From a virus, in IMG/VR virus record IMGVR_UViG_3300025647_000002, positions 1 to 57,671 of that record: a stretch of 57,671 nt of DNA, one strand, 5' to 3'. The position numbers were made by a program, and so were the translations under genes. Positions 4,460 through 57,632 of the stretch are shown here, in pieces (position 1 is the first letter of the stretch; every line of letters starts with the position of its first letter). Under the pieces are notes generated by a model, which saw nothing but the letters and a program-made list of their open reading frames with translations, did no database searches and was not told the DNA's origin.

Positions 4460-4501
4460 TAACTTTACATAGTTGACATAGCTAACACAGGGGGTGTATC
4501 C

Positions 4502-4924: not shown

Positions 4925-6341
4925 AGTCCAGCAGCTGCGGTCTCTCGGGATCGCAGCGCCCTCCCCGATCCTGCATTATTACCAGTGGCCCGGCCAGTTC
5001 ACACCATACGACCACCAGCGTATGACCTCTGCGTTCCTTACCATGCACAGCAAGTGCTTGGTGCTTAATGAGATCGGTACCGGCAAGACGCAGAGTTCCC
5101 TGTGGGCTGCGGACTACCTGATAAAGATAGGTGCCGTGAAGAAGGTGTTGATCCTGTCGCCTCTATCTACACTAGAGCGGGTGTGGGGTGACGCTATCTT
5201 CAAGCAGTTCTTCCATCTCAAGCATGTCGTGCTCCACGGTACGGCAGCGCGACGGAAGAAGCTGCTCAATACAGAGGCTGACTTCTACATCATCAACCAT
5301 GATGGGTTCAACATCATCGCTGAGGATGCCATCGGTAAGTTCGATCTGGTCATCGTGGATGAGGCAGCTGTGCTGCGGAACCCATCGACCAGCCGGTACA
5401 AGCACTTCAAGAAGTGGATGGGCCTCAACCCTGACACCCGCCTGTGGCTCATGACTGGGACGCCGACACCGAACGACCCCACCGATGCGTGGACCCTGTC
5501 GCAGCTGGTCGATAGCCCTTACACACCGCGCACCTACACTGCGTTCCGTGAGCAGGTTATGATGAAGATTGGTCAGTGGAAGTTCGTGCCGCGCCCAGAG
5601 AGCGTGGACATTGTGAAAAACATTCTGCAGCCAGCTGTCCGCTATACACGGGATGAGTGCTTCGACCTACCGGATACCGTGGTCCAGACACGTCGTGTGG
5701 AACTGACACCGGTACAGAAGCAGCACTACCAGACCATGCTAAAGAAGCTAGTCATCGAGATGGATGGTGGGGCAGGGAACATCAGTGCTGTCAACGAGGC
5801 AGTCAAGGTGCAGAAGCTGGTCCAGATTGCCTGTGGTGTGGCGTACACCGACGACGGGCAGGACTTTGAGATTGATTGTTCACCACGGGTGAACGCAGTG
5901 AAGGAGGTAATTGAAGAAGCAGGTGAGAAGGTAATCGTCTTCGTCCCCTTGACAGGGACGCTGAACATGTTGGAGCGGGAACTATCCAAGCGGTGGAGTA
6001 CAGCAGTCGTCAACGGTGCTGTGTCATCCAGCAAAAGGAACCAGATTTTCCATGACTTCCAAGAGCACAAGGACCCACGTATCCTGATCGCTCACCCTGC
6101 CACGATGGCACATGGCCTGACCCTGACCTCGGCTTCGACCGTGGTATGGTATGGACCCATAACCAGCAACGAGCAGTATGTTCAGGCAAACGGACGTGTA
6201 GAGCGTATCGGGAAGCGGCATGTCAGTAACGTGGTACATATCGAGGCGACTGACCTTGAGTACAAAATGTACCACCGGCTGGAGAACAAGCAAAAACTAC
6301 AGGGCCTGCTCCTCGACATGATCCAACAAAATATGGAGTAA
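4788..6341 (+). CDS. SNF2-family DEAD/DEAH helicase
   Basis: 517 residues from a GTG preceded by gagggag. Two RecA-like domains are visible: Walker A NEIGTGKT at 94-101, Walker B DEAA at 191-194, a GTPTPN motif III, and the C-terminal motif VI region QANGRVERIGK. The N-terminal segment before the helicase core (PERV, AVPH, APSPI, YYQWPG) matches the conserved start I know for this phage SNF2 group, so the early start inside the VRR-NUC gene is real. It probably remodels branched DNA together with the VRR-NUC partner. The next gene begins 4 nt after its stop. Confidence 0.93.
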   Translation: MLVIPKAKALALKLKNPERVMATIPTAKAISFRGQPLVAVPHKIAEVQQLRSLGIAAPSPILHYYQWPGQFTPYDHQRMTSAFLTMHSKCLVLNEIGTGKTQSSLWAADYLIKIGAVKKVLILSPLSTLERVWGDAIFKQFFHLKHVVLHGTAARRKKLLNTEADFYIINHDGFNIIAEDAIGKFDLVIVDEAAVLRNPSTSRYKHFKKWMGLNPDTRLWLMTGTPTPNDPTDAWTLSQLVDSPYTPRTYTAFREQVMMKIGQWKFVPRPESVDIVKNILQPAVRYTRDECFDLPDTVVQTRRVELTPVQKQHYQTMLKKLVIEMDGGAGNISAVNEAVKVQKLVQIACGVAYTDDGQDFEIDCSPRVNAVKEVIEEAGEKVIVFVPLTGTLNMLERELSKRWSTAVVNGAVSSSKRNQIFHDFQEHKDPRILIAHPATMAHGLTLTSASTVVWYGPITSNEQYVQANGRVERIGKRHVSNVVHIEATDLEYKMYHRLENKQKLQGLLLDMIQQNME

Positions 6342-7300: not shown

Positions 7301-8284
7301 GTGAGCAACATCGTACCTACAAACATCCAAGTCCCCGCGCACCTCGCAGGTAAAGTCGGCCAGCCATCGGCGCTGTCGCAGAGCATCTCTGCTGGCATCT
7401 CTGCTGGTCAGTCGTTCCCGCGTATCTCGCTGAAGGGCAGCCGCTTCCGTATCGTTGAAGATGGTACCGAAACTGTACTGGATACCACGGCCCTCGACAT
7501 TGTGATCGTCGGCGCAAACCCCAAGCTGTCCAAGACATTCTACGCCAAGGCGTGGGACAAGGACGCAGAGCCAGCGGCACCTGACTGCTATTCTCTGGAT
7601 GGTACCAAGCCGCACCCTGAGAGCGAAGCCCCGCAGAACGACCTGTGTGCATCGTGCCCACACAATGCTTGGGGTTCCAAGATCGGCCCACAGGGCCAGC
7701 AGTTGAAGGCGTGTACCGACCAGAAGCGCCTCGCTATCGTATCAGCTGACGATCCGGAAGGTCCAGTTTATCTGTTGCAGGTTACACCTGCTGCACTGAA
7801 GGGCTTGAACGCTTACCACAAAGAGCTCTCCATGCGTGGTATCCCAGCCGAGGTGGTCAAGACCAAGATCAGCTTTGACACTGATGCGTCCTTCCCCAAA
7901 CTGAAGTTTGGCTTCGGTGGTTTCCTCGACGAGGATACGTACGGTGCGGTCGAGCCCCTGTTCGGTGCCGATAACGTGATGGATATTACCGGTGAGCAGC
8001 AGCCAGAGGTAGCGGCGGCACCATCCACCCCTCGTATGGCAGCCGTAACGGCCAAGCCTGCGCCTGCGCCTGCGCCAGAGCCAGCGCCAGCGCCAGCGCC
8101 AGAGCCAGAGCCCGTGGTTGAGGAGAAACCAAAGCGTGGTTTCGGTGCAGCCAAGGCAGCGGATAAGCCCAAGGCAGCTACCAAACCAAAAGCGGAACCC
8201 AAGGCAGCGGCCGAGGTGGATGCTGATGTCGCCAGCTTGGCAGACGATATTGCCGCACTGGTGGGGATGGCCGATGACGACTAA
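7301..8284 (+). CDS. Zinc-binding, SSB-like phage replication protein
   Basis: 327 residues from a GTG preceded by aaggag. Residues 40-200 form the conserved part, with four cysteines (C96, C116, C119, C138; signature CASCPHNAWGS) that probably bind zinc. Residues 250-310 are a Pro/Ala/Lys linker, and the protein ends in an acidic-hydrophobic tip (DIAALVGMADDD). An acidic C-terminal tip after a flexible linker is the hallmark of SSB, T7 gp2.5 and T4 gp32, which recruit partners through it. Its place between the recombination genes and the primase also fits a single-strand-binding role. That function is inferred; the cysteine-containing core is not a classical OB-fold signature. Confidence 0.78.
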   Translation: MSNIVPTNIQVPAHLAGKVGQPSALSQSISAGISAGQSFPRISLKGSRFRIVEDGTETVLDTTALDIVIVGANPKLSKTFYAKAWDKDAEPAAPDCYSLDGTKPHPESEAPQNDLCASCPHNAWGSKIGPQGQQLKACTDQKRLAIVSADDPEGPVYLLQVTPAALKGLNAYHKELSMRGIPAEVVKTKISFDTDASFPKLKFGFGGFLDEDTYGAVEPLFGADNVMDITGEQQPEVAAAPSTPRMAAVTAKPAPAPAPEPAPAPAPEPEPVVEEKPKRGFGAAKAADKPKAATKPKAEPKAAAEVDADVASLADDIAALVGMADDD

Positions 8285-11485: not shown

Positions 11486-14400
11486 TCGTTATACATACCG
11501 GTGTACGCCTCGATGTAGGGGCGTACACTCAGCGAAGTCGAGTTGATAAACCGTTCGCTTGCGAGTTGCTTTTGTGCCTTCAACGCCCGTTTCACCTTAG
11601 CCCGCATGTCGCCCATCTCCAGACCAGTACCGGCAGCATAGCGGTTCCACTCCGCGACACGGTCGTACAGGTACGCCACCTGCTCACGATCACCGCGGGC
11701 TTCGGCCTTCACAATCGCATCACGATACGCCGTGGTGTAGCTGCGCTGGTACTGCTCGCGGCGCATACCGACACGGACGACGTCGTATTCGGATGAAGCA
11801 CCCAGAGGGTACAACCCGAGTGCCCGCATGATGGCGACTCCGCTGTTGTAATCCTCGCTCACTACGTATCCGCGGCGATCCACGATGGCACCACTCCGCT
11901 CGTATGCGTACACGTCACCCAAGGCGCGCAGCATACTGATCGGAGACTCGCGGACTGTCTTTTCAATATCACCGGGCATACCGCCGGGCGCGAAGTCCAG
12001 TAGGTTCCCGATAGTCTTCATGCTGTTCGCAGCGAAGGAAGCCATTGGACCACCGACCTCTGTGATGACACGCGATGTCTCTGCACCCGGGAGGAACATT
12101 TCTGTACCGGGCACGATGTTGCCGAGGCCAGTACGCGAACCGACGTCGCTCCCAAGCATGTTGTTGAACGCACCGCTCATAAGTGCCGAGCCGAAGCCGG
12201 GCATGAACTCGTTGCCCTTGTCCACCATGTACTGCCTGATACTTGGTACTGGGATACCGAACTTGAACGCCAGTGTGTCGACAATATCCTCAATGTCTTC
12301 CGAGAACGGTACACCACGGAGGCCGGACAGCAGCAGGAGGCTGCCGAGCATGATGATCCGCCCGTTGTTATTGAGGTTTGCGATGAGTGTGGCACTGTTG
12401 ACGACGAACTGTTTGAACATGAACGCGAACTGCTGGATACCGCCGCGGAAGAACGCTGGCCGGTTGCCTGTCGTGTAGTCACCCAAGGTACTGTTTACCA
12501 GTGTCTCTGCAAAGGCAGCAGCATCCTTCGCTGCATCCACGTTGTTGGCACCAGCTGCTGTGCGGCGGCGGAACTCAAGGCGGAACGCGGCGAGTGCTGC
12601 TGCACGGCGCGAGTGTTGCTCCGTGGAGTTGAAGGGGGCCATGAAATACTGGACAAACGTCTGCTGCGCACCCGTTGTGACGCGGCCACGGGCTGACCCT
12701 GATAGGGAGTTGAACTGGGCCGCATCCAAGAACCCGCCCTCGATACCTTCGACAAGGAAGTCGGCCTCCGCACGTGTCATACCGCGCTTGGCGAGGTCGG
12801 CATCTGACATTTCCTCTTTGCTCCAGAACGCAGCTGTGTCCGCACCGGAGTTTGGCTTGAGGCTGAACCCAACCGAGAACGCAGCGTTCTTGATCTCGAC
12901 AAAAGCATCCCACCCGAAGCCGCCGCCGAATCCGTTCTTGGCATTGTAGGTAGCCAGTGCTGCAGGCACGTTGGTACCAAGGCCGACAAGGTTCAATGCA
13001 CCCGAGGCTACAGACCCCCCCAAGAACGACATGGCTGTCAACGTGCGTATAGCACCGACGGTTTTGCCGGATGCCATGTCTGTCTCCAGAACCTGCTTCT
13101 GCTGGTCCAAGAATGTCACGAGCTTGCGGAACTCGTTGTAGTGCTGGTTGCCCCGCTTTGGTGCTTCGTTGGTGACGAACCAGCTGTGGTACTGGTCAAA
13201 CTTGCGGCGGGCTTCCACCTTGGCTTCCTCGTTCATCGTCGTGTCAGTCAACGATGCCTCGTACTCAGCCTTCAGCGTGTTGTATTTCTCTTGACTACCC
13301 TTCCACAGCGCATCCGATTCCGGGTTGCTGCGGTCCAGTATGTTCGCCAGCTCCACGCTGGTTTTATTCCGCGCGATGGTAGATGCACGGGACTCGATGT
13401 GCTGCGAGATAGCCTGCGACAGATCGTTCTTCGCACCCGGTGCGAACGAAGCCTTCAGCTGGCGCAGTACGGAGAAGTCGTTCTGCGATGTGAGTGCGAG
13501 GATGATCTGCTCTGCCCGCGTCGGGTCGAGGTTGATACTGAAACGGCGCAGGAACCGCATCGCCTCGTTCATGTTGATCTCTGGGTCTGTCGACGCTGTC
13601 TGGATCACCGCTTCCGACTTGGATATGAGCCGCAGTTTCTTGAGCACGTTACCACCAAGGCCGTTGTTGGCCTTTGGGTCGAACACCTCGACCTCATGCG
13701 TACCCTCACCAAACAGTTCGGTCATGCTCGCCGCTGCCGTATCCGCCTCGCTCTGGGTCTCGAACTGCATGTACACAGTCTGGTCCCGATACCGGTCGGT
13801 CATAGCAAACTCAGTACCGTTCTCATCCACGGCCGCGATGCGTGCGTGCCAGCTACCCTCACGGGTGAACGGGACGTAGTTTGTCTCGATGTCACGGACG
13901 GCCTTGATCTCTGCGTCCCGCGTACTGATGAGTTCGTTGGCGAGGCTGCGCACTTCCTGCTGCACCACGAAACTCTCGGGTCCACGCTTCTCGTTGCCCT
14001 TTGGCTTCAACGGTGTGTACCGCGTACGGAAGTCGGTGATAGCTGCCTCAAGGTCAGCCCGCTCGTTTGTGTCAAAGAACGCTTTACCTCCAGCGCCTTC
14101 AGTCGCCGGGTCAAACAGCGCGTCGATGCGATCCGTACCTGTCCCTAGTAGCGCCTTGTTGACAGCAACCATGAGCGCTTCGGCACGGCGCATGTCGATG
14201 GAGCCACGCAGGCGGATACCATTCTCGTCAAACTCTGCATCACCGGTGGCCACATCCACGAACTTGTTGGTCAGCTTCTGCACCAGCTTGCGGTCACCAT
14301 CAGTCATCGGCGCATTCATCGCCCGCTGGATGCGTTTGTAGGTGGTGTCCTGCTCCTCGTTGTACCGGGTCAGTGTACTCTCCAGCAGGGCCACGGAAGT

Positions 14401-17400
14401 CTCAGCCATCGCATCCAGTTCGCCGTTGAAGCCGGCCCACTCTGCATCTGTGAAGTCGTGGGTGAATGTCTCGGTGTACATCCCGGTGTAGGAGTTGTCT
14501 TTGATCCGCTTGTCGTAAGACTTGGCGATCAGCTTGCCAGCCTCGGGGGTAGGGGCGGCTGCCACGGCAACGTCCCGCTCCGCTACCAGCTGTGCCCGCA
14601 TCTCTACAGTCAACGGCTTGGTCTGCGGCAGTTTGATCTCGATACCATCCCTGAACTGCTGCCGCGTCGGGCGGTTCTGCTTCAGCTTGGCGACGACATC
14701 CTTTTGCAGCTGGAACTCGCCGGAGGCCGCGATGTACTTAAATATCTTTGGCGGGTTTGGCTTCGCCTTGTACCCGACAGAACGCAGGATACGGGCAGCC
14801 TTCAGCGCCTTACCCACATCGCTTTTCTGCGCCTCGGTGAGACCATCCGAGAACTTTATCCCGAAGATTTCCACCGCTGGACGCAGTGTCTTTTTGCGGA
14901 GTACCTGCATCTGGTTGATATGTGTACGCGAGATATTGTACCGCCGGTTGATCGCACCCCAGACAAGACTACCACCCTCACTACGGATTGACCGCCACAG
15001 CGTGGGGGTAAACACCTGAGACTTGAGTGTGTCGTAGGCGTTCCCGAAGTCCACCTTGACCTTACGCTTTGCAAAGTCGTTGAGTATAGCCAGAGCGCCT
15101 TCGAGCTTCTTGGGTGTTGGACCGCCCGCGAGTTCGATCGTACGCCCCAGACCCAGCACGCTACCATCTGCGATGGAGGCGGCCGAGGCGAAACGCCCCG
15201 TACCGGTGGGCTCAATGCCCTGCTCAAGTGCCTGTGTCCTGCGACCCATCAGCTCTGCATCGAAGAACGTGGAGCGCTGACCGGTCACGACGTACCGGCG
15301 CGCTTGGCTGAGAAGGTAACGTGCCTGCTCGTCACCGAACCGTACGCCGATCTTGTTCAGCGCGTTCTTGACCTTGTTCCACCAGAGGGAAAGGATGTTG
15401 TTCTCAATGCGTGCAGCATAGTCAGACAGGTATTCTTCCGTCGCCTCGGCGCGGCTCATACCACGGGCTTCGACTGCCGAGTCGATGAGGGTGCGGGCCT
15501 CTGGTGTGCTGTTCTTGTAGACAGAGTTCATCACGCTGTCGAACTCAGCGTTACCCACGATCGCACGCATACCGAAGTGGCCCATTGTTTCGTGGGCAAG
15601 GACTGCGTTCAGGTGCCCGGTGTTCGCGATCCGGTTGGAGAAGACGATGACGGTGTCGCCGTCGAAGAAGTAGGCAGCTGCGTTGACTGTGTCGAAGTCA
15701 CCTTGCGGCCGCGCCGCGGTAGCGCGTGCGTAGAGCTTTGGGTTCTTGGTCCGCAGGTCCGCTTGGTCCTTGAACACGTGGGACTTTGGCTTAACGGCGA
15801 TGTTACGGAAGAACGACTTCACAGTAAGCTGCAACTTACCAACCGCCATGGGCTTCACGGGGTTCTTGTTCTCATCTGCGAGGCCGTTGAGCGTGTTGTA
15901 ATCTGCCAGCGATGTGCGGCCGGCTTGGACCTTGGTACCAAGGTCACGCCGCTCAATCCTACCTTTGACCACGTTGGGGAAACCTTTGGGTGTGACGTAA
16001 TCAAGGGCATCGCGGGGCTGGCCCTCCTTTGTCCCGTCCTTGATTATTTGCGTCAGCTGGACGAACGTGTCTTGTTCTGTGCGATTTGGCCGTTCGTTTC
16101 TTGTGTTTATCTCGGCTACCATACGCAGCAGTTCTACGGCTGCCACATCGGCCTTTGCTTCGGGGGTATTAGGGGCCCGCTGGCCGGACTGCGCACGCCA
16201 GCGGGCCTGCGCCATATCACTGATCTTAGAGAGTTGTTGGCTGGTCAGGTTTAGCTCTAAGGCGTTCTGAGCTGCCACCTTGGCCTCTGCCTTATCGCTT
16301 GCCTCGGCTATCTCTTCTGTACTGGGCTTCGCCTTGAGTTCTACGTCTGGAGCATTCGCAATGTTGTACAGCTCGATACCAGCGTTGATCTCGTCCGACG
16401 ACAAGGTCTTACGCTTCTTCGCACCGAGGATGTCTTGTTCAAGGTCAGCGACAAGCTCCATTTCGGGTGATAGCTCACCTACGGCGCGCTCTGCCTTCAG
16501 CGCTTCCATACTGACCTTCTTCGGTTTCTTCGGTTTCTCAGGCGCAAGTGTTTCCGGCGTCTGGTCTACTTCGGTTTCCGTTTCGGCTTCACCTTCTCCG
16601 GCAGTTTCTTGCCCTTTGGTGTCTTGGCCTGAAACTCCTTTGCCAGCTTTGGTTCCTTGGCGTAGAGCGCCCGCCTTTGGGCTTGGCTCTTGAACGGCAT
16701 CCTTCTTCCCTCTCTTGAGTTTATCCCCTTTGGGTGCAGTAGGTGGCGTGGGTGGTGTAGTATCCGGGGACAACGCCGCAAGTGCCTGCTCCTTGGTATC
16801 ACCAAGATACGTCGTCAGTTCACCAGCATCCATAACATCAAGGTTATGCCAGCCAGTGATATCCCCGGAACCTACTGTCCGGGCGATGCGTACGATCTCA
16901 CCATCGGGGGTAGCAACCTCATAGACTGTCAGCCCATCGGCGTCCTTCGTACCACGGGCGGATACGGACTGCGCTTTACCGGTCTTCGTGGCCTTTCTTA
17001 TTGCCTCACCGCGAGCCGCCGCTTTAGCTTGCGCAGCGAGGTCCACCTTGGCAGGCGCAGCTTTGGGCGTAGGCTCAGGTGCGCCGCGCCGCGCCGCCAG
17101 ATAGGCTTCGCCCTCCTCAAGTACACGGTCGCGCTGGACGTTAAGGCGTTGTCCGAGGGCCTGCAGATTTGCTGCCTGTCCCTGCAGCTGCTGGCGTTCT
17201 GCCTCAGCTGCGCGTGCGGCTTCGACCTGTTGGCGCATGGTATCTACGTCTGTCTTCGCTGGCGGCTCAGCCCCGCGTGTCGCCGGTGTGTCTACCAGCG
17301 GATCGGCTTTCCCCTTCGCGCTCTTCCTAAGACGCTGGAGCAGCTCGACATCTGCTTTCTCTGCGCGGACAGCGTTTATCCACTCCAGCTGTGACTTCTT

Positions 17401-19446
17401 ACTCAGCTTGGCGAATGTCGGCACGCCCTCTGGGTTTCTAACCAGCGCGCTCTCGTTACCCCATACAGCTAAGGCACCGAGGTAGTCGTTCGGTGTGACG
17501 TCTTCTGCACGCAGCGGTGCCCGCTGTGCTTCGCGCGCTGCCCGTACTTGTGCGGCCTGTTCTTGTTGTGCAGCCTGTCCTTGTTGGGCGGCCTGCTGTG
17601 CGGCCTGCTGTGCGGCCTGTGCCTGCTGCGCTTGGGCACGTGCCTGCTGCTGTTGCTGCAGACGATTCATCTGTTCAGCCATGGCAGTGGGCTGCGCACT
17701 GAGTTCCATCCGCTGCTGACCAGCGGCTTCCAGTTCAGCCTGTGATACAGGAGGTGCTGTGACCTCCGGGCGAGGGGCACCCGCCAGCTGTTGGCCTGTG
17801 AGCCGTGCCTGCGTGGCCACGTCAACACCCATCTCCGCGGGTGTGAACGCCTCGGCCTGTCCGGGCTCTGCGCGTTGCTGAGGCTGAAGTGTAAGCGGAG
17901 GCGGTGCCGGCGACCGAAGGTCCATAGAGAGTTGCGTCTCTGTTGGTGCCACGGGGGCAGGCTGCGGGCCTGCATATTCTCTATTAGGTGCTCGCTGTAC
18001 GGTGGGTATAAACAACCCCGGCTGCTCCTGACCGAAGTCAAAACCCAGCTGTGTGTCGCCGGAAGCCGCGGGTGCCACGGGTGCAGGCTGCTGTCCCATA
18101 TTCGGGTCGGTGCCCAGATCAGCCCCGGGGAACATCTCCGCCTGTGCGTTCGGCTCCAGCGATGCGCCGCTGAGCATGTTAGTCGGGTCACCGGAGTCGA
18201 CGTCACGGTTCGGTGTGGGCGGTTTGGCCTTTCCTTCAAAAGGTATGGAGGCAGCACGGAAGCCACCACCAAGCAAGAAGCCAGCGCCTGCGGCAACAAG
18301 CCCTTCTTCACCATACTTGTCGATGATAAGCGGCGCGAGCGCAGCCCAGTCAGCCTCGTTGAACTCGGCGCGGAGCTCTGGGTCAAACATAACGCGGTCA
18401 GTCAGGGTGGCGGTTGCCTCCGCAGCACCTTCCAAAGCACCAGCGCCTACAACGCGCCCGAGATTACCACGGAATGTGCGGCGAGCAGCGTCATCAACGG
18501 CGGTACCAAATGCGCGGCTGAAACCACCGGCAATGATCGCCTCTGGTACGGTCTGGATAACTGTCTTGAACAGCGCGGACCGCCAAATATCCTGCTGTAC
18601 CTCTGGTGAGCGTACGTCGGGCCCGCCTTGCTCGGCTGCCTGCTCCGCTGCCTGCCACGAGGACTGGAGTTCCATCGGGAAAATAGAAGTGGCGACACCG
18701 CCTAGTTGACCGGCGCGCGCAGCAGCCCCGCCTGCGGCAGCGGCCCGGAGGCCACCGGCCAAAAGAGCACCGCCACCGACGCCACTAGCGACCGACAAGC
18801 CGATCGTTGGGATACTGCGTGTGGCAGCTGTAAGGATTTTGCCGCCGATCCCTTGCTGCTTAGCGATCAATGCGTCACGTGCTTGGTCAGCAGCAGTTGG
18901 GCCGAGGAACTCGCCCGCACTCACAAGTGCCTGTCCCGCGCCTTCGGCCCCAAGCATCTGCAGACCACGGCCTGTACCGCCGACGACACCCTGACCCACA
19001 TCGCGAAAGCCCATTCCGACATTGCCAAAGAAGCCACGCCCTTCACCGATAGAGCTGAGGTACTGCTGGTACTGTGTAGGTGCAATACGCCGCCAGTCAG
19101 CGGCGTTCGCCGGCATGGGGTTAGGTGCTTCGAGGTTACCCGCGCTTTGTAGCGCGACATCATAATCCTCACGGCCAAACTCGACACCACCGACAGAAAA
19201 GCGGTCCATGCCCGGGCTATAGTAGATATCTCCGCCGGGACGCATAGACGATTCTGGTGGAGGTTGGATACGCGGTGCTTCCGGGGCCCCAAGTCCTGTA
19301 ATACGATCCAGCGCCTGTTGGCGCTGGACTTCTACATCCGCAAGGCCGGACCGCACGCCGCCGACGCCCATCTCCGGCAAGTTGCTATATAGATCAGAAC
19401 GTGGCGTTTGTAGTCCAGCGCCGTACCGAAGATTTTGGTCTGCCAT
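11482..19446 (-). CDS. Giant internal virion / DNA-ejection protein (gp16-like) with zincin motif
   Basis: 2,654 residues, the largest gene here, started at an ATG behind gaggtga. By gene order it corresponds to T7 gp16. Residues about 205-250 are Gly/Ala-rich and hydrophobic (membrane-active?), a Gln/Ala-rich coiled region lies near 590-640 and Lys/Glu/Pro linkers near 870-970. HETMGH at 1285-1290 is a zinc metallopeptidase (HExxH-like) motif that could cut envelope or virion proteins during ejection. The C-terminal third has hydrophobic stretches (TLTAMSFLGGSVASG; IIMLGSLLLLSG) that could form a channel through the inner membrane. No lysozyme-like SLT motif was found by eye. A separate small gene is nested at 16566-16700 in another frame. 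Confidence 0.92.
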   Translation of the reverse strand: MADQNLRYGAGLQTPRSDLYSNLPEMGVGGVRSGLADVEVQRQQALDRITGLGAPEAPRIQPPPESSMRPGGDIYYSPGMDRFSVGGVEFGREDYDVALQSAGNLEAPNPMPANAADWRRIAPTQYQQYLSSIGEGRGFFGNVGMGFRDVGQGVVGGTGRGLQMLGAEGAGQALVSAGEFLGPTAADQARDALIAKQQGIGGKILTAATRSIPTIGLSVASGVGGGALLAGGLRAAAAGGAAARAGQLGGVATSIFPMELQSSWQAAEQAAEQGGPDVRSPEVQQDIWRSALFKTVIQTVPEAIIAGGFSRAFGTAVDDAARRTFRGNLGRVVGAGALEGAAEATATLTDRVMFDPELRAEFNEADWAALAPLIIDKYGEEGLVAAGAGFLLGGGFRAASIPFEGKAKPPTPNRDVDSGDPTNMLSGASLEPNAQAEMFPGADLGTDPNMGQQPAPVAPAASGDTQLGFDFGQEQPGLFIPTVQRAPNREYAGPQPAPVAPTETQLSMDLRSPAPPPLTLQPQQRAEPGQAEAFTPAEMGVDVATQARLTGQQLAGAPRPEVTAPPVSQAELEAAGQQRMELSAQPTAMAEQMNRLQQQQQARAQAQQAQAAQQAAQQAAQQGQAAQQEQAAQVRAAREAQRAPLRAEDVTPNDYLGALAVWGNESALVRNPEGVPTFAKLSKKSQLEWINAVRAEKADVELLQRLRKSAKGKADPLVDTPATRGAEPPAKTDVDTMRQQVEAARAAEAERQQLQGQAANLQALGQRLNVQRDRVLEEGEAYLAARRGAPEPTPKAAPAKVDLAAQAKAAARGEAIRKATKTGKAQSVSARGTKDADGLTVYEVATPDGEIVRIARTVGSGDITGWHNLDVMDAGELTTYLGDTKEQALAALSPDTTPPTPPTAPKGDKLKRGKKDAVQEPSPKAGALRQGTKAGKGVSGQDTKGQETAGEGEAETETEVDQTPETLAPEKPKKPKKVSMEALKAERAVGELSPEMELVADLEQDILGAKKRKTLSSDEINAGIELYNIANAPDVELKAKPSTEEIAEASDKAEAKVAAQNALELNLTSQQLSKISDMAQARWRAQSGQRAPNTPEAKADVAAVELLRMVAEINTRNERPNRTEQDTFVQLTQIIKDGTKEGQPRDALDYVTPKGFPNVVKGRIERRDLGTKVQAGRTSLADYNTLNGLADENKNPVKPMAVGKLQLTVKSFFRNIAVKPKSHVFKDQADLRTKNPKLYARATAARPQGDFDTVNAAAYFFDGDTVIVFSNRIANTGHLNAVLAHETMGHFGMRAIVGNAEFDSVMNSVYKNSTPEARTLIDSAVEARGMSRAEATEEYLSDYAARIENNILSLWWNKVKNALNKIGVRFGDEQARYLLSQARRYVVTGQRSTFFDAELMGRRTQALEQGIEPTGTGRFASAASIADGSVLGLGRTIELAGGPTPKKLEGALAILNDFAKRKVKVDFGNAYDTLKSQVFTPTLWRSIRSEGGSLVWGAINRRYNISRTHINQMQVLRKKTLRPAVEIFGIKFSDGLTEAQKSDVGKALKAARILRSVGYKAKPNPPKIFKYIAASGEFQLQKDVVAKLKQNRPTRQQFRDGIEIKLPQTKPLTVEMRAQLVAERDVAVAAAPTPEAGKLIAKSYDKRIKDNSYTGMYTETFTHDFTDAEWAGFNGELDAMAETSVALLESTLTRYNEEQDTTYKRIQRAMNAPMTDGDRKLVQKLTNKFVDVATGDAEFDENGIRLRGSIDMRRAEALMVAVNKALLGTGTDRIDALFDPATEGAGGKAFFDTNERADLEAAITDFRTRYTPLKPKGNEKRGPESFVVQQEVRSLANELISTRDAEIKAVRDIETNYVPFTREGSWHARIAAVDENGTEFAMTDRYRDQTVYMQFETQSEADTAAASMTELFGEGTHEVEVFDPKANNGLGGNVLKKLRLISKSEAVIQTASTDPEINMNEAMRFLRRFSINLDPTRAEQIILALTSQNDFSVLRQLKASFAPGAKNDLSQAISQHIESRASTIARNKTSVELANILDRSNPESDALWKGSQEKYNTLKAEYEASLTDTTMNEEAKVEARRKFDQYHSWFVTNEAPKRGNQHYNEFRKLVTFLDQQKQVLETDMASGKTVGAIRTLTAMSFLGGSVASGALNLVGLGTNVPAALATYNAKNGFGGGFGWDAFVEIKNAAFSVGFSLKPNSGADTAAFWSKEEMSDADLAKRGMTRAEADFLVEGIEGGFLDAAQFNSLSGSARGRVTTGAQQTFVQYFMAPFNSTEQHSRRAAALAAFRLEFRRRTAAGANNVDAAKDAAAFAETLVNSTLGDYTTGNRPAFFRGGIQQFAFMFKQFVVNSATLIANLNNNGRIIMLGSLLLLSGLRGVPFSEDIEDIVDTLAFKFGIPVPSIRQYMVDKGNEFMPGFGSALMSGAFNNMLGSDVGSRTGLGNIVPGTEMFLPGAETSRVITEVGGPMASFAANSMKTIGNLLDFAPGGMPGDIEKTVRESPISMLRALGDVYAYERSGAIVDRRGYVVSEDYNSGVAIMRALGLYPLGASSEYDVVRVGMRREQYQRSYTTAYRDAIVKAEARGDREQVAYLYDRVAEWNRYAAGTGLEMGDMRAKVKRALKAQKQLASERFINSTSLSVRPYIEAYTGMYND
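16566..16700 (-). CDS. Small basic protein nested in the giant virion gene (alternative frame)
   Basis: 44 residues: ATG at 16700, TAG at 16566-16568, preceded by gagggaagaagg. It begins MPFKSQAQRRALYAKE and continues with AKTPKGKKLPEKVKPK. I recognise this pattern (MPFKS-AQRR at the start, TPK-KLPE-VK at the end) from a widespread family of tiny, very basic phage proteins of unknown function. It is read in a different frame on the same strand as the 2,654-residue gene. There the host frame (about residues 916-961) is only a low-complexity Gly/Glu/Thr/Lys linker, as expected if the linker is the secondary reading. Length and basic charge suggest nucleic-acid binding; that is inference. Confidence 0.75.
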   Translation of the reverse strand: MPFKSQAQRRALYAKEPKLAKEFQAKTPKGKKLPEKVKPKRKPK

Positions 19447-26619: not shown

Positions 26620-26807
26620 AGTCTGTCCCTCACTTCGTTGTGTGTCGTCACATCGACCAGCAGCTGCCGGTCGTTCTCGATTAACCAATCGACGCTACTC
26701 TGACTGCCGAGCGGTATGGTGCGTGTCCAGTCGCACTCAGGGCTTCTTAGACACCCACTTAGAAGCGCGATCAGCGAGACCGTTATTATCAAGCGCACCG
26801 ACCTCAT
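26610..26807 (-). CDS. Outer-membrane spanin (Rz1-like lipoprotein)
   Basis: 65 residues. A short signal peptide (RLIITVSLIALLSGC) ends in a lipobox, LLSGC, so residue C19 would be lipidated. The mature part has a pattern I know from phage lysis cassettes: ECDW at the start, RQLL followed by HNE near the end, then a C-terminal Cys. It begins 71 nt inside the neighbouring membrane protein gene in another frame, exactly like Rz/Rz1 pairs. It would join the inner-membrane spanin to fuse inner and outer membranes at the end of lysis. Confidence 0.82.
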   Translation of the reverse strand: MRSVRLIITVSLIALLSGCLRSPECDWTRTIPLGSQSSVDWLIENDRQLLVDVTTHNEVRDRLCQ

Positions 26808-26955
26808 CCCGCACCTCCTCTGCTGTTTCCATATCTTTCAACCGCTGTTCAAAACGCTTGGCCTTGTCACCGTTGGAGTGGGAGCGGTACCCGAAGAAGT
26901 ACATCACCAGTCCGCTCAGCAGGCCGACCACGAGCGGCAGGATTGCATCAGTCAT
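26737..26955 (-). CDS. Inner-membrane spanin candidate (Rz-like)
   Basis: 72 residues. One N-terminal transmembrane helix (ILPLVVGLLSGLVMYFFGY) is followed by a charged coiled coil (AKRFEQRLKDMETAEEVRDE). Topology (N-in, C-terminal coiled coil in the periplasm) matches i-spanins, though it is short for the class. It overlaps the endolysin gene by ATGA and contains the start of the o-spanin gene in another frame. It could alternatively be a small holin-like protein, but the overlapped lipoprotein favours a spanin. Confidence 0.72.
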   Translation of the reverse strand: MTDAILPLVVGLLSGLVMYFFGYRSHSNGDKAKRFEQRLKDMETAEEVRDEVGALDNNGLADRASKWVSKKP

Positions 26956-27584
26956 TTGCGGCTCCGTCTATACAAGAGGTATCCGATCAGCGTCGCGGCG
27001 ACAATCAGTGCAACAACCTGTGCGGCCGGGGCCAAGGTCCCCAGCAGGGAACTGGCGGCAGGAATGTGTTCTGCCGCGACGGCAATACCACCGGCAACAC
27101 CGACTCCTGCCGCGGCCTGTGCCTCTTTGTCCTCGGTTAGTGTTTCTGGCTGGCGTGGCGGCTCGATAGGCCACTCGGTTTTGCTATCTGGCCAAGGCTT
27201 TCCCCAACTGCGTGCGGGCCCTGTGTCGATGTGCATGAAGCCTGATTTGGGGTAGTACCCAAAGCCAGTGAACCCGACAGCCCGCGCTGCCTGCTCGAAC
27301 TTGTGCGGATCGTGGTTGTCCATCCGCACGTCGAAGGCGATCGCCTCCATGTGCTTGGATGCCTTAGCGCCCCCAACCGCGCGGTTGTGCTCCGGCGAGC
27401 GGTACGCTGATGTGATAATGAGGGGCTTACCCAGCATGTCGCGGAGAGCTTGCAGCTTGTCCATCGCATTTCCGTCGACGACCAGCTTACCGGTACCTTT
27501 ACAGGCCATCTCGCGCGGGCTGAATGACAGCCAAGTCCAGACCGATTCTGGAACTGCCTTGTAATTTGTAAATGAGCGTTTCAT
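26952..27584 (-). CDS. Endolysin: M15 D-Ala-D-Ala carboxypeptidase with C-terminal membrane anchor
   Basis: 210 residues, ATG behind gaggaag. The Peptidase M15A domain (about 15-130) has the zinc ligands H78 and D85 (SKHMEAIAFDV) and H118 (GFMHIDTG), with the SAYRSPEHN motif before them. It should cut peptidoglycan peptides in the periplasm. A linker (130-180) leads to a C-terminal transmembrane helix (AAQVVALIVAATLIGYLLY) ended by basic residues RRSRK. There is no N-terminal signal peptide. A tail-anchored M15 endolysin is unusual; the anchor may hold it at the membrane until the holin acts. It is flanked by holin-like and spanin genes. Confidence 0.87.
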   Translation of the reverse strand: MKRSFTNYKAVPESVWTWLSFSPREMACKGTGKLVVDGNAMDKLQALRDMLGKPLIITSAYRSPEHNRAVGGAKASKHMEAIAFDVRMDNHDPHKFEQAARAVGFTGFGYYPKSGFMHIDTGPARSWGKPWPDSKTEWPIEPPRQPETLTEDKEAQAAAGVGVAGGIAVAAEHIPAASSLLGTLAPAAQVVALIVAATLIGYLLYRRSRK

Positions 27585-52310: not shown

Positions 52311-53300
52311 ATGAGAGCATCACTTCTGAACACCACACTCCAAGCCCTTATCAACGTCGGTCGATCCGTCGCTATTGAGGGTGCTCCCGGCGGTGGTAAG
52401 ACGACCATTGTCCACGAGGTGGCCGAGGCTATGGGACTGCCCGTTGTGGAACGGCACATGCCGACCATGCTGGTCGAGGACTTCGGTATCCCCTACCCAA
52501 CTGACGCTGGGTTCGAGTACAAGCTGCCCGACTGGTTCCCACTCAAGGGCAAGGCCGGCACCGAGAACGGTGGTGTCCTACTGTTCGACGACCGGAACCA
52601 AGCCAATGCCGATCTACAGAAGGTGCTGGCCAACATCCAGCAAGCCAGAACGCTACATGGCAAGCCGTTGGCCGATGGGTGGACCGTCGTGTCAACTGGT
52701 AACAGACAGTCCGACCGTGCTGGTGCCAACCGTGTCCTGTCCCACCTTCGTAACCGTGAGACAGTGCTTGAGTTCGAGACGCACCTCGACGACAGCACAC
52801 AGTGGATGATCGACAACGGCGTACGTTCAGAGGTCATTGCCTTTACACGGTTCCGCCCCAACCTGCTCCACGACTTCGACCCACAGCGTGACGTCAACCC
52901 GACACCACGGTCATGGGTCGAGGGTGTATCCGCGATACTTGGCAAGGTGCCAGCCGAGGCAGAGTACGAATGCTTCAAGGGTGCCATTGGCGAGGGTGCT
53001 GCGGCAGAGTTCTTGGGGTTCATACGTATCTACCGCAAGCTGCCCAACCCCGATGCTATCCTGATGAACCCAACCACGGCAGACGTACCGACTGATCCTG
53101 CTACGCTCTACGCCCTGTCCGGTGCCATCGCCGAGCGGGCTACAGAGGGTAACATGGAGCGGGTTGTGACCTACACCAGCCGTATGCCAGCCGAGTTCTC
53201 TGTGCTCAGCATCTCACATGCTCTCCGCAAGACACCCGAGTTGGCCAACACAGCGGCCTTCACAAGCTGGGCAGTGAAGCACCAAGATGTACTGTTCTAG
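52311..53300 (+). CDS. MoxR-type AAA+ ATPase
   Basis: 329 residues from the ATG at 52311 (aagga upstream). AAA+ core: Walker A GAPGGGKT at 24-31, Walker B VLLFDD at 89-94 (second acid Asp instead of Glu), sensor-1 Asn in STGNRQ near 131, and an Arg-rich region (RVLSHLRNRE). The P-loop style and the neighbouring DUF3150-like and VWA genes place it with the MoxR/CobS group, chaperones that remodel a protein partner by ATP hydrolysis. Target unknown. Confidence 0.87.
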   Translation: MRASLLNTTLQALINVGRSVAIEGAPGGGKTTIVHEVAEAMGLPVVERHMPTMLVEDFGIPYPTDAGFEYKLPDWFPLKGKAGTENGGVLLFDDRNQANADLQKVLANIQQARTLHGKPLADGWTVVSTGNRQSDRAGANRVLSHLRNRETVLEFETHLDDSTQWMIDNGVRSEVIAFTRFRPNLLHDFDPQRDVNPTPRSWVEGVSAILGKVPAEAEYECFKGAIGEGAAAEFLGFIRIYRKLPNPDAILMNPTTADVPTDPATLYALSGAIAERATEGNMERVVTYTSRMPAEFSVLSISHALRKTPELANTAAFTSWAVKHQDVLF

Positions 53301-53351
53301 GTCTTGTTATTACGACAGGACCTCTACCCACTGGCATTAGGTCAGTGGGTA
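53300..53351 (+). other. Two adjacent hairpins after the MoxR gene
   Basis: Hairpin 1 pairs 53300-53307 with 53315-53322 (one G-T pair). Hairpin 2 pairs 53325-53333 with 53343-53351 perfectly (TACCCACTG). No T-run follows either. They may set different mRNA levels for MoxR and downstream genes. Confidence 0.6.
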
Positions 53352-53378
53352 CACCAACACTCAATAAGGATTTACGAG

Positions 53379-54242
53379 ATGAAACTATCTGACCGCGCAC
53401 TGCTAGTGCAGCTGAACATATCCACATGGTCTGCCAACAAGCTGGACAAGGAGATCAGCACCGAGACTACCCGTAACAAGGGTGCTATCTCCGGCTCCGT
53501 CCGATCCCACAAGAGCCTGCTGCCGATGTGTGACCTACTGGATGATATCAAGAAGAAAGCCGGCCTGATCCGCCAGCAGTTCTACGACAACACCCTGCCA
53601 TGGGGTGTCAAGGGTATCCAAATCCTGCCGACTGCCAACTACCTCGCCTTCATGACCGAGTTCCGCAAGGAGAAGTCTGACTACGAGGCGCTGGTCCGGC
53701 AGTTTGTACCGGCTTACCCCCAACTGGTGCAGGATGCACAGCGGTTCCTTGGTACAGCGTACAAGGTCGACGACTACCCTGACGTAAGTGAGATCGGTAG
53801 CAAGTTCAAGATGGACCTTGGTGTCATGCCAGTGCCCAACAACGACTTCCGTGTGGACATTGCTGATGCCGAACTGGAGCGTATCCAAGAGGAGGTCGAG
53901 GCCCGTGTAAAGCAGGCCTCAACTGGTGCTATGCAAGAGGTATGGCAGCGGCTCTACGACAAGGTGGTCCACATGGCAGACCGTATGGCCAAGCTGGACG
54001 ACCCCAAAGCACGGTTCCACGAGAGCACATTGGATAACATCACCGACCTGTGTGACCTGCTGCCACGGCTCAACGTCATGGACGATCCGAACCTTGAGGC
54101 TATGCGCCAAGAGGTCGAGGGCAAGCTGTCCGGACTGAGCAAGGACAGCGTGGTACAGAGCCCCACGTTCCGGCAGACTAAGATCGACGAGGCAAACGAC
54201 ATCGCTGCCAAGATGGCAGCGTTCATGGGAGGACTGAAGTGA
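53379..54242 (+). CDS. DUF3150-like protein
   Basis: 287 residues from the ATG at 53379 (aagga upstream). All-helical: an N-terminal ALLVQLNISTWSANKLDKEI segment, a region with FYDNTLPWGVKGIQILPTAN, then long coiled coils (ELERIQEEVEARVKQASTGA). This matches the size and layout of DUF3150 proteins, which in phages and plasmids stand between a MoxR-type ATPase and a VWA (CobT-like) protein. It probably bridges or regulates the two. Biochemical function unknown. Confidence 0.76.
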   Translation: MKLSDRALLVQLNISTWSANKLDKEISTETTRNKGAISGSVRSHKSLLPMCDLLDDIKKKAGLIRQQFYDNTLPWGVKGIQILPTANYLAFMTEFRKEKSDYEALVRQFVPAYPQLVQDAQRFLGTAYKVDDYPDVSEIGSKFKMDLGVMPVPNNDFRVDIADAELERIQEEVEARVKQASTGAMQEVWQRLYDKVVHMADRMAKLDDPKARFHESTLDNITDLCDLLPRLNVMDDPNLEAMRQEVEGKLSGLSKDSVVQSPTFRQTKIDEANDIAAKMAAFMGGLK

Positions 54243-54463
54243 CACGACGTGTCGGAGAGATATTCATATTACCCTTGGCATATAGCACTGGGTACTACGA
54301 AGCAAAGAACGGAGAGACACCCCTTTGTTGGGGTGTCTACCGTAAGGGTGACGGGTTTACGGAGAGCGTGAACGAACACACCCTGAGCAAACCAACCACG
54401 TCCAAATACAACACAGAAGTAGAGGCCATTGCGGCTGCTGCAAGAGCAAGACTGAAAGGATAG
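54239..54463 (+). CDS. Small hypothetical protein
   Basis: 74 residues from a GTG overlapping the upstream stop (GTGA). N-terminal hydrophobic strand (GEIFILPLAYSTGYY), then a loop and a short helix (EVEAIAAAARARLKG). It lies between the DUF3150-like and VWA genes, 3 nt before the latter. Not recognised. Confidence 0.7.
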   Translation: MTRRVGEIFILPLAYSTGYYEAKNGETPLCWGVYRKGDGFTESVNEHTLSKPTTSKYNTEVEAIAAAARARLKG

Positions 54464-54466
54464 ACT

Positions 54467-55576
54467 ATGGACCTTATGAAACGACTGAGCAAAGCCAAGA
54501 CCAGCCTGATCTTGGAACACCCCTTCATTGGCAGCGTGGCACTCAACATGCCCATGTCACTGAGCGACGAGGTGCCCACCGCTGCGACCAACGGCAAGCG
54601 GGTGCTGTACAATCCCGACTTCATCGAGCCGCTCACTGACGAGGAACTCAAGTTCCTTGTGGCCCACGAGTGCCTACACCCCATGCTAGAGCACAACTAT
54701 CGACGGGGTGCTCGTGACCCCAAGAAGTGGAACAAGGCAGCGGACTACGTCATCAACCAGCTGCTTGTCGACGAGGGTATCGGCAAGTTCATCGAGGGTG
54801 GCTGCCTTGACCAGACCATCTACAACAACGGCGGCGGCACCAGCGATGGTATCTACAACCTGCTGCCTGATGGCGAGGGTGACGGTGACAGTGACGCCCC
54901 CGGTGGACCCGGTAACGACCTTGAGGATGGCGAAGGTGGCCAAGCAGAGCAGGCGCAAGAGGCTGCCGAGTGGAAGATCAAGGTGGCCCAAGCTGCACAG
55001 GCTGCCAAGATGATGGGCAAACTGAGCGCCAACATGGCACGGCTTGTCGACGAGGTACTCAAGCCCAAGGTGGACTGGCGTGACAGACTGCGCCAGTTCG
55101 TGCAGAAGGCCAAGAACGACCAGCGTACCTTCGCAAGACCCAACCGCCGGTTCCTGTCACAAGGGCTCTACATGCCGACCATCACCGGCGAGGTGCTGGG
55201 TGAGATGGTATTCGCCGTGGATATGTCTGGGTCTATCCAACAGGACGAGTGCAACCAGTATTCGGCCGAGTGTCGTATCGTCCACGAGGATGGCAAGCCC
55301 TACAAGCTGCACCTTATCTACTTCAGCCACGAGGTATGTGCCCACGACACGCTGTCACGGGACGACGAGTTCGAGTTCAACCCCCGTGGCGGTGGCGGTA
55401 CTGCCTTCAGCCCTGTGTTCAAGCACATCGAGGAGCAGGGCATCGAGCCTGCTGGTATCGTGTTCCTCACTGACCTGTACTGCAACGACTTCGGTGACGC
55501 ACCTGACTGCCCTGTGCTTTGGGTGTCAACGGGTGCAGACCAAGCACCCTTCGGTGAAGTGGTGGTGATGGAATGA
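54467..55576 (+). CDS. VWA-like / putative metallopeptidase protein
   Basis: 369 residues. The N-terminal domain has HECLH at 67-71, a zinc-peptidase type HExxH motif. A linker rich in Asp/Gly/Glu (about 140-170) separates it from a C-terminal von Willebrand A domain with MIDAS residues D252, S254 and S256 (DMSGS). This is the DUF2201-type metallopeptidase plus VWA design found beside MoxR ATPases. It probably binds a substrate through VWA and is loaded by the MoxR partner. Protease activity is not proven. The next gene overlaps by ATGA. Confidence 0.85.
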   Translation: MDLMKRLSKAKTSLILEHPFIGSVALNMPMSLSDEVPTAATNGKRVLYNPDFIEPLTDEELKFLVAHECLHPMLEHNYRRGARDPKKWNKAADYVINQLLVDEGIGKFIEGGCLDQTIYNNGGGTSDGIYNLLPDGEGDGDSDAPGGPGNDLEDGEGGQAEQAQEAAEWKIKVAQAAQAAKMMGKLSANMARLVDEVLKPKVDWRDRLRQFVQKAKNDQRTFARPNRRFLSQGLYMPTITGEVLGEMVFAVDMSGSIQQDECNQYSAECRIVHEDGKPYKLHLIYFSHEVCAHDTLSRDDEFEFNPRGGGGTAFSPVFKHIEEQGIEPAGIVFLTDLYCNDFGDAPDCPVLWVSTGADQAPFGEVVVME

Positions 55577-55869
55577 CAGACCTACTCATCATGACGGCGG
55601 CCCTCGTGGCCGCCATTATATGGACCATATACTTACAACGTGTTGTGAGCAGGCTCACAAAGAGATCGGTCAGCATAAACAGGCGGCTTAACTCCGCCCG
55701 TCTGACACTCGCCGAAGTAAGGGATGAGGTAGACTACTACCTTGAGGAGAACCAAACACTCAAGGACATATTAACGGACGTAGCAAAGGGAGAAGTACAT
55801 GTCTGGATCGGAGAAGATGGCCTCGTCAGAGCGGTGCGAAAGCCTGCTGGAGAGACACCGATACATTAA
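55573..55869 (+). CDS. Membrane protein with coiled coil
   Basis: 98 residues, ATG overlapping the VWA stop. N-terminal transmembrane helix (LIMTAALVAAIIWTIYLQ), basic stretch, then a coiled coil (SINRRLNSARLTLAEVRDEV). It could anchor the MoxR-VWA assembly at the membrane. The last 71 nt overlap the next gene in another frame. Confidence 0.75.
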   Translation: MTDLLIMTAALVAAIIWTIYLQRVVSRLTKRSVSINRRLNSARLTLAEVRDEVDYYLEENQTLKDILTDVAKGEVHVWIGEDGLVRAVRKPAGETPIH

Positions 55870-56401
55870 CGTCGAGCACAACGACTGGTACCAGTCTGTC
55901 TATGAGAGCTTCAAGGAGGATATGCGAGAGGTCGGCATCGACGTGCGGCGTATGTACTTCAGCGGGTTCTGGTCGCAGGGTGATGGTGCCTGTTTCAAGG
56001 GCAGGTTTGATAACCTCAAGACCTACCTCGACCACCACCACAAGGACCAGTACCCCATGATCCGCAAGCTGTTGGAGCATGGTGGGTACGTCCACATCGA
56101 CTGCACCCAAAGCGGTAACTACTACCACGAGCAGTCCACCCACTTCAGCGTAGAGCACGACACGTTCTACCGATTGGTCGAGTGTCCGACCGAGTTCCAT
56201 GAGAAGATCGTGGACGCATGGGACAAGCAGCTTGAGGACGAGGTCGAGGCGTTCGAGAACGACGTGACCGAGCAGTGGAGGACCTACATGCAAGACCTCT
56301 ACAGCAAGCTGGAGGATGCACACGACTACCTCGTCAGTGACGAGGCGGTGTGGGAAGCCATCGAGGCCAACGAACTAGACTACGAAATGGAGGATGCGTA
56401 A
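55799..56401 (+). CDS. Conserved phage protein (YFSGFWSQGDGACF family)
   Basis: 200 residues, ATG behind agggagaag; a second ATG at 55817 is possible. The MYFSGFWSQGDGACFKGRF motif (about 48-65) followed by GNYYHEQSTHFSV recurs in a family present in many phages and sometimes labelled an antitoxin of a toxin-antitoxin stability system; that label has weak support. The C-terminus is acidic and helical. No partner toxin is evident. It overlaps the upstream gene by 71 nt. Confidence 0.8.
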   Translation: MSGSEKMASSERCESLLERHRYINVEHNDWYQSVYESFKEDMREVGIDVRRMYFSGFWSQGDGACFKGRFDNLKTYLDHHHKDQYPMIRKLLEHGGYVHIDCTQSGNYYHEQSTHFSVEHDTFYRLVECPTEFHEKIVDAWDKQLEDEVEAFENDVTEQWRTYMQDLYSKLEDAHDYLVSDEAVWEAIEANELDYEMEDA

Positions 56402-57174
56402 TGCTATCAAGCTACGAGGCAGCACAGCTGTACATGAAGAAGGCACGGAACAAAGCCAAGGGACGCCCTATGAAAAGCTCCAGCTGGCGGTTGTTCCAAG
56501 ACGGTGACGAGTACGTTGTCACCGTACACGGCGATCAGCTAGGACGGTTCCTTCCTGACAACACGTTTATGTTTACCACCGACGGGCAGCGGGCTTACCG
56601 CACTGCCAATACCCTGAGCGGTACAATGGCCGCGAACATACCGTTCTACTGGAAGCGTGTTGGTAGTAGGAAGTACAGGGTCGAGCACAGAAACGGGATG
56701 GTGTCCCCTGCGTATGTACATTTTGCGGGCAAGAACAATTCACCGCTGATCTACGACGGGCTCAAGTTCGATCTCTTTACAGGCAAGTGCCTCAACTACA
56801 AGCCGGACCCCGTCAGACAGGTAGACCCCGAGAAGCGCAAGGTATGGCTGGCTGCCAGCCGCGCGTGGAAGGCCAAGCTAAAGGTCGCCGCAAGACTTGG
56901 CGTATTTGACAGCTTGATCGTAGCAGAGCGGAAAAACCGTACTCCATGGATCGACAAACCTAAGTGGGGGTATGACGAATGGCTTGACATACTATACAAA
57001 GCTATCAAAGATAACGATTGCAGCACGGACCTGCTGAAGATGTTCGTGGCCAGTGAGGTATCATGGGCGTGTTCAGAAACGTCGATGGAAATTTACAATA
57101 GTGTGGAGAAACTACTGACTACGTATAGCGTGGAGTTGCGCCAACGGTTTGGCGTATTTTTGGAGGGGAAATGA
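56401..57174 (+). CDS. Hypothetical protein
   Basis: 257 residues, start overlapping the upstream stop (TAATG). The middle is strand-rich (DGDEYVVTVHGDQLGRFLP) and the C-terminal half helical (KAIKDNDCSTDLLKMFVASE). No motif known to me. It lies between the YFSGFWSQGD family gene and the dGTP diphosphohydrolase-like gene. Not recognised. Confidence 0.76.
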   Translation: MLSSYEAAQLYMKKARNKAKGRPMKSSSWRLFQDGDEYVVTVHGDQLGRFLPDNTFMFTTDGQRAYRTANTLSGTMAANIPFYWKRVGSRKYRVEHRNGMVSPAYVHFAGKNNSPLIYDGLKFDLFTGKCLNYKPDPVRQVDPEKRKVWLAASRAWKAKLKVAARLGVFDSLIVAERKNRTPWIDKPKWGYDEWLDILYKAIKDNDCSTDLLKMFVASEVSWACSETSMEIYNSVEKLLTTYSVELRQRFGVFLEGK

Positions 57175-57632
57175 TGGACAACACAGACCAGCGGGTATGG
57201 AAGTACCTGCTTGAGAATAGACAGGCTACCACCGCCGATTTGGTGCTGGAGTGTGATATAACTATTGCCCGAGCCCAAGCATACCTAGATCGTATAGGGT
57301 CACCCGACTGGCGTGAACCTGTTGAGGGTAAGAAGTTTGACACCGGCAAGGTACGGTACGATCTGGTCCCCCCAGAGATCGAGGAGGCTATAGCAAAGGT
57401 ACTGACCTTCGGTGCCAGTAAGTACGGCGACCGCAACTGGGAGCTGGGCATGGACTGGGGCCGCGTGTACGCTGCCATGCGCCGCCACCTGAGCGCCTTC
57501 TGGTCCGGTGAGAAGTATGACCCCGAGACTGGTATGCCCCACACGTGGCACGCCGCGTGCTGTATCGCTTTCTTGGTGACGTACGAGGATAGGGAGATCG
57601 GGGATGATGACCGACCTACCAAAGCAGATTGA
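57171..57632 (+). CDS. dATP/dGTP diphosphohydrolase-like protein with N-terminal helix-turn-helix
   Basis: 153 residues. The C-terminal core (53-140) matches the dATP/dGTP diphosphohydrolase (MazG-like) phage family, with KFDTGKVRYDLVP, FGASKYGDRNWELG and the RRHLSAFWSGEKYDPETG and HTWHAACC metal and helix segments. It would hydrolyse dNTPs to dNMP, tuning the pool together with the dCMP deaminase. The first 50 residues form a winged-helix-like region (LLENRQATTADLVLECDITI), an unusual addition that may bind DNA or only help dimerise. Confidence 0.82.
   Translation: MMDNTDQRVWKYLLENRQATTADLVLECDITIARAQAYLDRIGSPDWREPVEGKKFDTGKVRYDLVPPEIEEAIAKVLTFGASKYGDRNWELGMDWGRVYAAMRRHLSAFWSGEKYDPETGMPHTWHAACCIAFLVTYEDREIGDDDRPTKAD

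Follow-up and report, generated by a model that had tools for sequence, protein, structure and literature searches.

The IMG/VR virus record IMGVR_UViG_3300025647_000002 (57,671 bases, the whole stretch of DNA analysed here and referred to as the window) encodes, in this order and on the + strand, an AAA+ ATPase, a DUF3150-like protein and a protein that joins a metallopeptidase-like HExxH (zincin) domain to a VWA domain. We propose, with moderate confidence, that these three proteins make up an ATP-driven remodelling complex with an AAA/zincin-VWA core, a probable zinc-peptidase site and the DUF3150-like protein as a third (adaptor) subunit. The three genes have homologues in many phages, are linked in viruses and on plasmids, and encode invariant catalytic residues. 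The ATPase and the VWA protein correspond to a known and unexplained pair of phage N4, gp24/gp25. The third partner, DUF3150, is almost unstudied and accompanies the pair on plasmids too. Other proteins of the record with PHROG matches include a terminase, head-tail adaptor, major head protein, internal virion protein, DNA polymerase and helicase.

Gene organization of the locus

A reading of the sequence alone (below, the sequence-only reading) had placed five open reading frames (ORFs) in a row, encoding AAA, DUF3150-like, small unknown, HECLH-VWA and membrane proteins. All five were found at that place and in that order, on the + strand. The gene overlaps that it noted were borne out as well, with 4 nt shared by the DUF3150-like gene and the small ORF of 74 amino acids (aa) and 4 nt by the VWA gene and the 98-aa membrane ORF. 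For the three main genes the evidence shows genuine coding sequences under strong constraint; the case for the 74-aa and membrane ORFs is weaker. For the sequence pairs listed, omega is 0.08-0.17 for the AAA, DUF3150 and VWA genes, 0.26-0.37 for three other neighbours and 0.59-0.77 for the membrane ORF. The AAA, DUF3150 and VWA proteins share 70-93% identity with most of their viral relatives and 42-69% with the most distant ones.

The AAA+ ATPase and the HExxH-VWA protein

The AAA+ ATPase (329 aa; 52311-53300, + strand) is a homologue of N4 gp24, with matches to phrog_1297 (9.6e-68), to Pfam AAA_5 (25.8 bits, cut-off 22) and, by tblastn, to N4 gp24 itself (5e-28). A Walker A motif (GAPGGGKT at residue 24), a Walker B motif (LLFDD) and a TGN sensor-like motif were identified, and R149 and R200 are invariant in the alignment. 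The protein had been described as a MoxR-type ATPase. This description holds in the broad sense but not in the strict one, as the AAA_3 model, which we take to be the MoxR model, reached only 13.4 bits against a cut-off of 27. RavA, CbbQ and NorQ chains were not among the 60 PDB matches listed for the AAA profile. The best PDB match is midasin (Rea1; 2.9e-30), a single giant eukaryotic chain that functions in ribosome assembly and is not known to have a zincin. According to the accessible part of PMC13036017, midasin also works with a VWA/MIDAS (metal ion-dependent adhesion site) domain.

Residue counts cover 81 AAA proteins and 83 distinct, full-length VWA proteins. Of the AAA proteins, 80/81 retain the Walker A lysine, the sole exception being a gap in a locus that begins inside the gene, and the first aspartate of Walker B is present in 81/81. 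The residue that follows is D in 66 proteins and E in 15. In the window, Walker B (52578-52592) reads FDD, with aspartate at the position of the catalytic glutamate. All 66 'DD' proteins come from DUF3150-bearing loci, and 9/9 proteins from loci without DUF3150 have 'DE'. Because 'DE' is likewise seen at six DUF3150-bearing loci, and because the rows are related to each other, this apparent tracking of DUF3150 by the Walker B residue is only a lead.

The HExxH-VWA protein (369 aa; 54467-55576, + strand) is a homologue of N4 gp25 (phrog_1314, 3.7e-101; tblastn to N4 gp25, 8e-29). Both of its domains score above their curated Pfam cut-offs: the metallopeptidase-like DUF2201_N (PF13203, 1.8e-49; 169.2 bits, cut-off 23.2) and the DUF2201 VWA domain (PF09967, 2.9e-22; 79.5 bits, cut-off 26.4). 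The VWA domain is preceded by 33 residues of low complexity that are rich in acidic side chains (11 D/E). HECLH at residue 67 and the MIDAS residues D252, S254, S256, T312 and D336 are intact. No substitution of H67, H71, H76, D93 or any of the five MIDAS residues occurs in the VWA proteins (83/83), and E68 of the HExxH motif is glutamate in 82/83. Thus, the two motifs to which the sequence-only reading had drawn attention are conserved among relatives.

Three further features of this family were observed. In Agrobacterium phage Atu_ph07 (L126; L numbers are our locus handles), N89 is replaced by G, with the two histidines and the MIDAS residues unchanged. Locus L032 carries an additional, incomplete VWA-protein ORF (7324-7680; 5274-5630 in L008, which comes from the same contig; E of 5e-53) between its DUF3150 gene and the complete VWA gene, a partial duplication. 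PHROG 1314 and many phage records carry the label 'HNH endonuclease'. Pfam identifies DUF2201_N and VWA and no HNH, and the label is probably a propagated misannotation.

The DUF3150-like protein

The proposed third subunit (287 aa; 53379-54242, + strand, ATG at 53379) is called DUF3150-like because its match to PF11348 (DUF3150), at 20.4 bits, is under the gathering cut-off of 24.9. PF11348 is matched at E<=0.01 by 18 of 54 relatives, and tblastn aligns the window protein with a protein of cyanophage MinM2 annotated as DUF3150 domain-containing (2e-28). A structure model based on a 54-row alignment (predicted local distance difference test score, pLDDT, 80.4; predicted template modelling score, pTM, 0.49) suggests a mixed alpha/beta arrangement over the first 150 residues, followed by long helices. 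In the VIA structure comparison, Z was <=11.2, nearly all from the C-terminal helical part (residues 164-285), with designed bundles as the best rows and Z within the range that is uninformative for helical bundles. BFVD gave eight matches to the model at E<=0.001, of which one is named DUF3150 and the others are uncharacterised or unnamed. Among PDB sequences, the DUF3150 profile gave only weak matches (best 0.0094). DUF3150 is rare in chromosomes: it was found in 4/399 genomes of one order, one copy being a 91-aa fragment (three are full-length), and in 1/398 genomes of one phylum draw.

Linkage of the three genes in viruses and plasmids

A scan of viral contigs with the DUF3150 alignment returned 375 relatives, and 80 were kept. 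At 75 of these 80 loci, an AAA gene precedes DUF3150 and a VWA gene follows it, all on one strand. At the other five (L036, L037, L049, L080 and L081), the contig ends on the side of the missing partner. Among contigs from the genome scan, 9/11 loci hold all three genes, and L115 and L118 stop at contig ends. The association survives rearrangement, since a Devosia locus (L121) keeps the three genes in the order DUF3150-AAA-VWA.

DUF3150 matches were found on 42 plasmids, 13 of which were examined. All three genes are present on 12/13, nine by profile search and three by annotation; in L138 the AAA gene, and in L112 the VWA gene, is divided between two frames. On seven plasmids (L029, L110, L137, L138, L139, L144 and L145), all from Burkholderia, Paraburkholderia or Robbsia and not independent, a secretion ATPase gene and a VirB4 gene lie downstream of the triad. 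The secretion ATPase is annotated as belonging to the type II secretion system/type IV pilus/type IV secretion system (T2SS/T4P/T4SS) family or as type II secretion protein E, and VirB2/TrbC and VirB3 genes lie between it and VirB4 in the six plasmids that name them. No such secretion genes occur in the stretch shown for L027, L028, L108, L109, L136 and L146. The Burkholderiales plasmid clusters encode the same proteins in the same order as the window (AAA-DUF3150-VWA), but differ from it in the T4SS genes beside 7/13 and in sequence, with ~30-37% identity to the window proteins. Co-occurrence across viral, plasmid and phage loci supports the earlier suggestion that the AAA/VWA pair and DUF3150 act together.

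Relationship to the N4 gp24/gp25 pair

Of 50,697 phage records searched by tblastn, 547 were matched by the VWA protein and 522 by the AAA protein. N4-like phages account for many of them, and N4 itself is in both sets. As PHROG matches and alignments indicate full-length homology of both window proteins to the N4 gp24/gp25 family, the pair is not special to the window phage. N4 (Schitoviridae) encodes the AAA and HExxH-VWA proteins in the same order and on the same strand. It differs in that no DUF3150 match was found anywhere in its record, and in that its AAA Walker B reads DE rather than DD. In the accessible sections of PMC7650795, PMC4193335 and PMC2784036, gp24 and gp25 are counted as core genes of N4-like phages or as homologues that these share, with their function given as unknown. 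A literature search, with most subscription papers and preprints outside its reach, returned no functional study of N4 gp24/gp25 and no paper for 'DUF3150'.

An AAA homologue was found in 13/13 named phages searched whole, with the best copy upstream of VWA on the same strand at a distance of ~0.1 kb (Slickus01, RaK2) to 4.4 kb (phage G). A DUF3150 homologue was found in only 1/13, cyanophage MinM2. Thus, AAA/VWA is the core, and DUF3150 is an addition in part of the family. In a VWA-protein tree of 44 rows, the window falls inside a clan of 22 rows (21 viral rows and L117, from a genome contig; support 100/99), with the plasmid rows and most genome-contig rows outside. The rows without DUF3150 need three changes on this tree, and several long branches make its deeper order unsure.

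Neighbouring genes

Between the DUF3150-like and VWA genes lies the 74-aa ORF (54239-54463, + strand), which has a GTG start and a GGAGG-like site upstream. No Pfam or PHROG match was found for it, nor any homologue in the fetched loci except copies of its own sequence. It is probably a lineage-specific insert outside the machine. The 98-aa membrane/coiled-coil ORF (55573-55869, + strand) has one hydrophobic 19-mer (mean hydropathy 2.07) and relatives in 23 fetched loci, from the closest phages only. Because it shares bases with the start of the gene that follows, orf55799, in those loci, while its distance from the VWA gene varies and reaches hundreds of bases in several (L003, L008, L013), it is probably paired with orf55799 and not with the machine. 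The sequence-only reading had counted both genes as members of the set and had taken the membrane gene as a hint that the complex could be assembled at the envelope. Both are instead probably neighbours of the machine and not parts of it, and with the membrane gene probably paired with orf55799 rather than VWA, the envelope idea finds no support.

The membrane ORF was also considered as a spanin. This was set aside, as the likely lysis region is elsewhere (M15 peptidase, 26952-27584). At 26737-27584 on the - strand, this peptidase adjoins a 72-aa ORF with a hydrophobic start, and together they form a likely lysis cassette. Downstream of the membrane ORF, orf56401 (56401-57174) encodes a 257-aa protein that lacks Pfam and PHROG matches and recurs at this place in many of these phages, with relatives in 65 loci at E<=0.01. 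The cluster ends with a protein containing a dATP/dGTP diphosphohydrolase N-terminal domain (57171-57632; PF18909, 6.3e-36). On the - strand, the gene at 11482-19446 encodes a protein of 2654 aa for which Pfam gave no match at E<=0.01.

Proposed function and alternatives

We suggest that the AAA protein would form a ring ATPase of the AAA_5/helix-2-insert type and that this ring would engage the VWA domain of the gp25-like protein, an assembly proposed by analogy to NorQD, CobST and midasin. In NorQD, as described in the accessible part of PMC13036017, a VWA finger enters the AAA pore and twisting of the linker has been proposed. By this analogy, ATP would be spent on pulling or twisting the zincin-VWA protein together with anything that it holds. 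A carboxylate of the client may be bound at the MIDAS site, and the attached HExxH domain would most likely cut the remodelled client or a tether, because the HExxH glutamate is conserved. The DUF3150-like protein would be a dedicated third subunit, probably an adaptor or scaffold presenting one class of client. Being present in part of the family only, it would specialise the AAA/zincin-VWA core machine.

Several observations weigh against this model. The structure model of the DUF3150-like protein has no PDB fold match at E<=0.001 and gives no hint of an adaptor, and that of the gp25-like protein is poor (pLDDT 55.7 from 10 rows) and unusable for the zinc site. Phage Atu_ph07 has Q for the catalytic E, so cutting by the HExxH domain may not be universal. 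Relatedness among the viral loci means that the linkage counts are not independent. Tree-distance correlations are 0.69-0.81 for the triad and 0.76-0.86 for the control gene orf56401; because the control correlates as well as the triad, the mirror-tree test is not discriminating. On a Candidatus Manganitrophus plasmid (L109, positions 2845-5867), DUF3150 occurs with a classical AAA (PF00004), DUF1257 and DUF2997, with no VWA gene within ~5 kb. This is perhaps a second machine using DUF3150.

NorQD, whose published model involves twisting (PMC13036017, accessible part), likewise combines an AAA protein with a MIDAS-VWA partner, and orf66/orf63 of phage 0305phi8-36 are described as a MoxR-type metalloprotein chaperonin in the available text of PMC2147016. 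The triad could accordingly be a non-proteolytic chaperone for cofactor or metal-centre maturation, similar to NorQ/NorD or CbbQ/CbbO, in which HExxH binds metal or client without cutting. We find this doubtful, as retention of the HExxH glutamate in 82/83 proteins goes beyond the needs of metal binding alone, no NorD, CbbO or MoxR-specific family model was reached in Pfam or NCBIfam, and the annotated loci examined share no one metalloenzyme gene as a recurrent neighbour. Within the accessible sections of PMC13036017, NorQD differs from the window set in having a known client (cNOR) and no DUF3150 in its model, and a zincin domain is not described for NorD. Another AAA/VWA pair of tailed viruses is CobS/CobT: cobST pairs are widespread there and cyanophage cobT is often called a peptidase (PMC8651126, accessible part), and the window AAA protein has a weak match (1.3e-05) to a 'porphyrin biosynthesis' PHROG family. 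A viral cobaltochelatase that would boost vitamin B12 synthesis by hijacking the CobN of the host is nevertheless very unlikely. No CobS or CobT model was matched (Pfam E<=1, NCBIfam E<=0.01), the VWA protein has the DUF2201_N/DUF2201 architecture (1.8e-49 and 2.9e-22), and the invariant HExxH would be left unexplained. No CobN was found in the record, although host CobN could serve.

The occurrence of the triad on phages and plasmids, its rarity in chromosomes and the T4SS genes beside it on 7/13 plasmids would also fit a counter-defence or host-takeover device that disables a host protein, with DUF3150 in target recognition. Its model would be the MoxR-vWA ternary conflict systems, including those with VMAP/iSTAND, in which AAA, vWA and a third conserved protein, differing between systems, are encoded together (eLife 2020, PMC7159879, accessible part). 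The order reported there is VMAP-MoxR-vWA with effector fusions, whereas the window has AAA-DUF3150-VWA, a zincin and no fused effector that we could see. Among the Pfam matches of the 54 DUF3150 relatives there is no VMAP model (sequence models only), and PADLOC defence models gave nothing above noise (best 19.1 bits, confined to the P-loop region). The presence of the core pair in N4-like phages (PMC7650795 and PMC4193335, accessible sections) fits replication or assembly at least equally well. On balance, we consider such a device unlikely. The five-gene envelope complex of the sequence-only reading draws on the overlapping or adjacent gene starts and the hydrophobic segment. It is highly improbable, given a small gene without relatives and a membrane gene that is confined to close relatives, overlaps orf55799 rather than tracking VWA, and has the high omega noted above.

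Returning to the AAA/DUF3150/zincin-VWA complex as the preferred reading, a broader and more speculative proposal, to which we give limited credence, is that the triad represents a machine of mobile elements, common to phages and conjugative plasmids, that belongs to a class not yet described and uses ATP for proteolysis or remodelling. Such machines might act on proteins of the host or of the element during DNA establishment or transfer, with DUF3150 picking the client and the Walker B Glu-to-Asp change marking a slow-cycling, DUF3150-dependent branch. The occurrence of the set next to T4SS genes on plasmids hints at a function shared by elements that carry DNA from one cell to another. If the triad is one machine, DUF3150 offers a way to reach the client, and exact point mutants are defined by the conserved residues of HExxH and MIDAS.

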